Below the pieces are notes generated by a model. The model saw only the letters and a program-made list of their open reading frames with translations, had not been told where the DNA came from and made no database searches. Made by a program: the position numbers and the translations under genes. Below are positions 31,371-31,817 of a stretch of DNA of 64,000 nucleotides, one piece after another; position 1 is the first letter of the stretch, and every line of letters starts with the position of its first letter. The stretch is from Candidatus Geothermarchaeum rappei. GTDB lineage: Archaea > Thermoproteota > Nitrososphaeria > Geothermarchaeales > JDFR-13. The DNA lies in assembly GCA_002011085.2 (NCBI GenBank), contig MTMB02000001.1:1492446-1556445 (forward strand). Reading direction: 5' to 3'.

Positions 31371-31372
31371 AT

Positions 31373-31551
31373 TTCACAATTCACCTATTAATATTCACGA
31401 TTCACAGTGAATAATACATTTTTGTAACCAAATTAGGTAATTTAGACAGTACACAGAAAGAAAATGACTACTTTTTCACTGGATTCACTGGAAACAAAGG
31501 GGTCGGAATGGTTCTTGTGAAAAGGTATAAATAGAGATTTCACTATGTGAA
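31373..31551. repeat. TTCAC/GTGAA half-site array
   Basis: TTCAC occurs at 31373, 31380, 31394, 31401, 31475, 31484 and 31539. GTGAA occurs at 31407, 31517 and 31547. Two pairs form near-palindromes: ATTCAC-A-GTGAAT (31400-31412) and TTCAC-TAT-GTGAA (31539-31551). Ten copies in 180 nt is far above chance for a 5-mer in AT-rich DNA. They extend beyond the ORB boxes into the promoter of the winged-helix gene. Confidence 0.7.
31484..31504 (+). promoter_or_regulatory. Origin recognition box ORB1
   Basis: TTCACTGGAAACAAAGGGGTC closely matches the archaeal ORB pattern (CCAGTGGAAAC core followed by a G-string). A second TTCACTGG (31475-31482) lies directly upstream. It is expected to bind Orc1/Cdc6 with its G-string pointing right. 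Confidence 0.85.
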
Positions 31552-31559
31552 AGAGTCCC

Positions 31560-31575
31560 GGACCCCTGTTTTTCC
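31560..31575 (-). promoter_or_regulatory. Origin recognition box ORB2 (inverted)
   Basis: On the minus strand this reads GGAAAAACAGGGGTCC, an ORB-type GGAAA-ACA-GGGGTC core facing ORB1. The two inverted boxes bracket about 55 nt that contain a TATA-like GGTATAAATAG. Confidence 0.7.
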
Positions 31576-31784
31576 TATGTATCAAATGAATAGAGATCTC
31601 TTACGGCAATCGGTCAAGAATGATATTATAATACGAATAGAAATACAGAAATATTGAAAGATACTATTATATAAGGGATCTTGTTAAATATATGGGGTAG
31701 GTATTTTCTAATAAAATATATATAATTTCAATATTTTCTTCATATAACTTTAGTCATGGCCACTCACGTTACATCTTTCTTAAA

Positions 31785-31813
31785 TTCAGAGGAAACAAAG
31801 GTTATGTGGGGGT
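31785..31813 (+). promoter_or_regulatory. Origin recognition box ORB3 overlapping the cdc6 start
   Basis: TTCAGAGGAAACAAAGG followed by TTATGTGGGGGTG has the ORB GGAAACAAAGG core and a G-string. It runs to just before the cdc6 GTG start, so Orc1 bound here would block its own translation start region/transcription (autoregulation by inference). Confidence 0.65.
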
Positions 31814-31817
31814 GCAG

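Follow-up and report, generated by a model that had tools for sequence, protein, structure and literature searches.

A TTCAC repeat array and a candidate winged-helix reader at the orc1-linked replication origin of Candidatus Geothermarchaeum rappei

A conserved array of short TTCAC repeats was found beside the ORB boxes of an orc1-linked origin in a 64,000-nucleotide stretch of DNA (hereafter the window; bases 1,492,446-1,556,445 of a genome that forms one contig of 1,583,546 bp). The origin itself is a further case of the well-known ORB kind, and the TTCAC repeats, or TTAAC repeats in related lineages, are a second conserved origin element besides the ORBs. As an overall explanation, we regard it as likely that the locus is a dominant bidirectional ORB/Orc1-1 origin whose TTCAC array is most likely bound by the product of a divergent neighbouring gene (HTHa), acting as an accessory factor. 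The features of the locus were as follows (positions in the window).

25112..28609, minus strand: DP2, large subunit of DNA polymerase D (TIGR00354)
28599..29360, minus strand: PcrB/GGGP-synthase family gene (PF01884, E 3e-60), syntenic in the origin neighbourhood
30396..30953, plus strand: HTHb, convergent with HTHa; conserved neighbour, structure model
30948..31370, minus strand: HTHa, winged-helix protein, divergent from orc1 across the origin; proposed TTCAC reader
31373..31551, no strand: TTCAC/GTGAA array, ten copies including the dyad TTTCACTATGTGAAA; densest cluster in 464 kb
31475..31507, plus strand: ORB box 1, extended (TTCACTGGATTCACTGGAAACAAAGGGGTCGG), with core 31483-31502; 16/18 to the ORB consensus
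31563..31582, minus strand: ORB box 2, facing box 1; 13/18, a minus-strand box at this place recurring in many families
31620..31740, no strand: AT-rich stretch of 19% GC, candidate duplex-unwinding element
31784..31803, plus strand: ORB box 3, at the orc1 start; 13/18, with the second exact GGAAACAAAGG
31818..33044, plus strand (ORF opens at 31806): orc1/cdc6 (orc1-1), AAA+ initiator with C-terminal winged helix (Pfam Cdc6_lid and Cdc6_C; TIGR02928, E 1e-110)
33033..34490, minus strand: DP1, small subunit of DNA polymerase D (NCBIfam, E 1e-128)

The initial annotation had placed ORB-type boxes in the gap upstream of cdc6. This was confirmed, box 1 being a textbook ORB and the layout being kept in relatives. 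The box 1 sequence (TTCACTGGAAACAAAGGGGT) agreed at 19 of 20 positions (own count) with the common archaeal ORB motif as published, TCCA[CG]T[TG]GAAA[TC][GA]AAGGGGT (PMC4164010). Its consensus score was the highest within the 64-kb window; no site above 14/18 was found in 400 kb of sampled genome, and box 1 was unequalled in 464 kb. Taken alone, boxes 2 and 3 were at chance level (33 sites of 13/18 in the 400 kb sampled). Of the facing pair that had been annotated, box 1 was strong by itself; box 2, like box 3, was credible through conservation only. The genome contained just two exact copies of the word GGAAACAAAGG, one in box 1 and one in box 3. Across 71 orc1-1 loci of the class and phylum the box order plus, minus, plus recurred, often with a doubled first box. 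The position of box 1 was conserved in relatives at about -240 to -430 of orc1, and a plus-strand box was located at -70 to +5 of the orc1 start in 27 of the 71 origins.

Box 3 was also thought to overlap the cdc6 start. Its placement at the start held, and overlap with the codon itself depends on the start choice: with GTG at 31806, 31812 and 31818 as candidates, box 3 (with its downstream G-run) either overlaps or just precedes the start codon. Given the conserved position of box 3 at the orc1 start, autorepression by Orc1 through this box is plausible. The AT-rich stretch expected between boxes 2 and 3 was present, with a GC content among the lowest of all 120-bp windows in the 64 kb. The lowest GC of the window (16-21%) was recorded at 29591-29800, upstream of a small ORF at 29712 and outside the origin gap.

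Strand composition was analysed in 319 genes, taken from the window and from 20 sampled stretches, which together cover about 29% of the genome. Raw GC skew was rejected as an origin indicator. It tracks gene strand, so only skew at third codon positions with the coding-strand component removed (corrected GC3 skew) was informative. Almost every gene left of the locus had positive corrected GC3 skew, and almost every gene to its right had negative skew. Within the window, all genes left of 23 kb were positive (R 0.04 to 0.37), and from 36 kb rightward nearly all were negative. The skew inflection that had been named as a check near 31.5 kb was therefore present in this sample. The circle was best divided at 1,516-1,518 kb, which places the switch 6-8 kb away from the origin predicted at 1,523.9 kb, and the antipode of the switch lay at 724 kb. 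Not one of 1000 permutations approached this split. Together, the switch at the locus and its antipode indicate that the chromosome has one dominant, bidirectional origin of replication. An adjacent orc1/cdc6 gene, at least two ORBs of which some are inverted, an AT-rich stretch and a switch in strand composition, by which origins of this class are recognised, were all found here. The origin call of the initial annotation was thus supported by the skew flip and by a layout and gene context conserved across the class and beyond. The negative corrected skew on the right side of the origin corresponds to a C-rich leading strand. The usual bacterial skew sign is the opposite.

It is highly improbable that the locus is a relic orc1 promoter with ORB-like repeats, replication beginning elsewhere, for example at other orc1 genes. 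Such genes exist, as the genome holds three Orc1 paralogs, the other two at 1,266,539-1,267,666 and 81,276-82,187. However, the skew switch sits at the present locus and its antipode, and neither good ORBs nor TTCAC clusters were found at the other two orc1 loci.

The ten TTCAC/GTGAA copies were contained in about 180-200 bp, and windows away from the locus never held more than three (464 kb sampled). The initial annotation mentioned neither these repeats nor the winged-helix gene linked to the origin. Plus-strand TTCAC copies start at 31373, 31380, 31394, 31401, 31475, 31484 and 31539, and minus-strand copies (GTGAA on the plus strand) at 31407, 31517 and 31547. For the dyad TTTCACNNNGTGAAA, the exact match in the genome was at the origin only. 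Two TTCAC copies fall inside extended box 1. Boxes 1 and 2 enclose three of the copies (31517, 31539 and 31547), and the remaining ones lie outside that interval.

Conservation of the repeats was assessed by scanning all 512 5-mers, without prior choice of words, over the 71 orc1-1 origins. TTCAC ranked first (8 families) and TTAAC, which differs by one base, second (7 families); the identical scan inside orc1 returned no recurrent word. Geothermarchaeota and Bathyarchaeota carried TTCAC, and most Nitrosopumilus/Nitrososphaera-type families carried TTAAC. Among origins with a good ORB, 47 of 55 were enriched for TTCAC or TTAAC (p < 0.01, first-order model), and the other 8 showed no enrichment for either word. 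The control words TTGAC/TTTAC were enriched in 1 of the 55. A named Nitrososphaera sp. genome carried 21 TTAAC copies (2.4 expected), and most named Bathyarchaeota carried 5 to 10 TTCAC copies (1 to 2.5 expected). In families f38 and f44 HTHa was present, yet the motif was not found beside orc1. Neither the class-wide second array nor the origin-linked winged-helix protein was found described in the searched open-access literature.

The location of the array also bears on its role. Five copies (31373-31411) lie directly upstream of the HTHa start, and winged helices resembling HTHa are often repressors (Penicillinase_R and AbiEi_4 matches; BlaI/MecI/Fur-like folds). Both points would suit an ordinary ORB origin in which the array is a transcription operator for HTHa and orc1, bound by HTHa or another regulator and having no replication role. 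We consider this unlikely, since further copies lie between boxes 1 and 2 and since the array follows the ORBs, not HTHa, where the genes have separated. HTHa was separated from orc1 in five genomes (G181, G204, G269, G127 and G141), and in each the ORBs and the motif remained at orc1; in G181, G204 and G269 the distance was tens of kb. The reverse arrangement was found in G256 and family f15, where an ORB-like box and TTCAC repeats lie beside HTHa and orc1 is elsewhere (single f15 genomes were weak). In several genomes, orc1-1 and ORBs form an origin-like region without an adjoining HTHa. Because ORBs and array stay together when the genes separate, the array goes with the origin and not with one gene. 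An HTHa operator is not supported by the genomes with separated HTHa and orc1 loci.

As reader of the TTCAC array, HTHa is the preferred candidate. Within the class, 93 of 94 good genomes had an ortholog, as did 157 of 250 genomes in a phylum sample, and HTHa was the divergent neighbour of orc1 in most genomes checked, including most Bathyarchaeota-type ones. In family f6 (L067, L071, L076), HTHa is co-directional with orc1, and TTCAC dyads (TTCACATGTGAA) lie upstream of HTHa. The AlphaFold model of HTHa contains a winged helix at residues 57-122, with a predicted recognition helix at residues 93-105 that is bordered by residue 92. Searches of Pfam, PDB sequences and folds placed HTHa only as a generic winged helix, in no family, and the window copy was below threshold for every Pfam family.

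Residue 92 was generally Thr with TTCAC and Ile, Val or Leu with TTAAC. In a first set, Thr was present at 21 of 23 TTCAC origins and a residue other than Thr at 24 of 25 TTAAC origins. In a later named set, residue and motif agreed in 23 genomes, 3 of which overlap the first set, and disagreed in 2: L244, in which the motif was merely unread, and L277, with Ala and both words. Exceptions to the pairing were Thr with TTAAC in G030 and Ala with TTCAC or both words in G120, G310, L257 and L277. Outside family f5, Ala at this residue tended to occur with TTCAC or both words. On the Orc1 tree the motif changed about 3 times, and residue 92 agreed in 2.7 of 3 independent pairs, which exceeds the other HTHa columns listed; further HTHa columns also correlate with the motif. 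With only about three motif changes, the link between residue and motif cannot reach significance by independent pairs. Judged from these sequence comparisons, HTHa is probably a second origin-binding factor that reads the TTCAC array.

We find it doubtful that another protein (Orc1, HTHb or a nucleoid protein) reads the repeats and that HTHa is merely a conserved neighbour. Conserved neighbourhoods do hold genes without an origin role, such as that of the PcrB family, and in the family of the window the motif and the outer part of box 1 overlap. Against such a reader, HTHa residue 92 changes along with the motif, and the array was absent from both available HTHa-less lineages with clear ORBs (G136 and G144). 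HTHb in particular is disfavoured as the array reader, its recognition residues R145, E146, H147 and R150 being invariant across the TTCAC and TTAAC classes.

By inference from studied archaeal origins, Orc1-1 from the adjacent gene would bind the ORB boxes and load MCM beside the AT-rich stretch. HTHa, encoded across the origin from orc1, would bind the array of TTCAC half-sites and may act as an accessory factor: it could shape or remodel the origin, for instance, or control the loading or release of the helicase. A comparable arrangement is known from Sulfolobus, where Orc1-1 on ORBs recruits MCM and an 11-bp origin motif (ucm), which was mutated to assess origin activity, is bound by UBP (PMC12141716). 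UBP is a beta-hairpin protein of about 111 aa that binds the MCM N-terminal domains and is restricted to Sulfolobales/Desulfurococcales; its authors call for UBP analogues in other lineages (PMC12141716). Like Sulfolobus oriC1, the present origin has three ORBs by orc1-1, inverted boxes, an AT-rich unwinding region and an extra conserved motif beside the ORBs. As with UBP/ucm, copies of the extra motif lie between inverted ORBs, though other copies lie outside. The two origins differ in that the extra motif here is a multi-copy TTCAC/TTAAC array and not one 11-bp ucm, and in that PolD genes flank the origin here. The candidate binder HTHa is modelled as a winged helix, unlike the beta-hairpins of UBP. 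HTHa could be the counterpart of UBP/ucm in lineages without UBP, a candidate analogue that is unrelated to UBP in fold and not a homologue.

In Nitrosopumilus maritimus, a single cdc6-linked origin was mapped by Pelve et al. 2013 (as cited in PMC4010727), and ORB repeats precede cdc (PMC5797428). A single origin with ORB repeats before cdc6 is shared with the present genome. Genomes of the N. maritimus kind, taken to be family f4, differ in carrying TTAAC and not TTCAC. No published description of the repeat array or of HTHa was found in the searched open-access literature. In Euryarchaeota, cdc6 and PolD at the origin are known from the Pyrococcus oriC replication island, in which cdc6, DP1 and DP2 lie together (PMC2643942). 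The present locus likewise combines cdc6 with the PolD subunit genes at an origin. In contrast to Pyrococcus, no RFC genes appeared among the neighbouring genes that were examined here, and HTHa, HTHb and a PcrB-family gene lie between the origin and DP2.

On balance, we lean slightly towards a broader reading, in which much of Thermoproteota outside Sulfolobus-like lineages (Nitrososphaeria, Bathyarchaeota and kin) would use a two-code main origin, ORBs with Orc1 forming one code and TTCAC/TTAAC with a dedicated, origin-encoded winged helix the other, and with a one-residue/one-base specificity switch. HTHa together with the TTMAC array (M = A or C) is a concrete candidate, and abundant lineages carry it, ammonia-oxidising archaea among them. 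The hypothesis is cheap to test owing to the pairing of one residue with one base, and the TTMAC array may serve as an additional marker for origin prediction in metagenome-assembled archaeal genomes.

The gene order DP2, PcrB-family gene, small ORF, HTHb, HTHa, origin, orc1, DP1 was kept across much of the class. Most members of the class have HTHb next to the origin; in some f7 genomes (L075, L077, L078) it was shifted about 5 kb or more away. HTHb has a predicted N-terminal membrane helix (from hydrophobic sequence) that runs into a helix of ~88 residues, followed by a C-terminal winged helix. On this model it might, speculatively, tether the origin region to the membrane. Beyond DP1, Rfam identified a tRNA of 111 nt at 34640-34750, probably with an intron, which was not listed by ARAGORN, and ARAGORN identified a tRNA-Leu at 39389-39476, which was not listed by Rfam.
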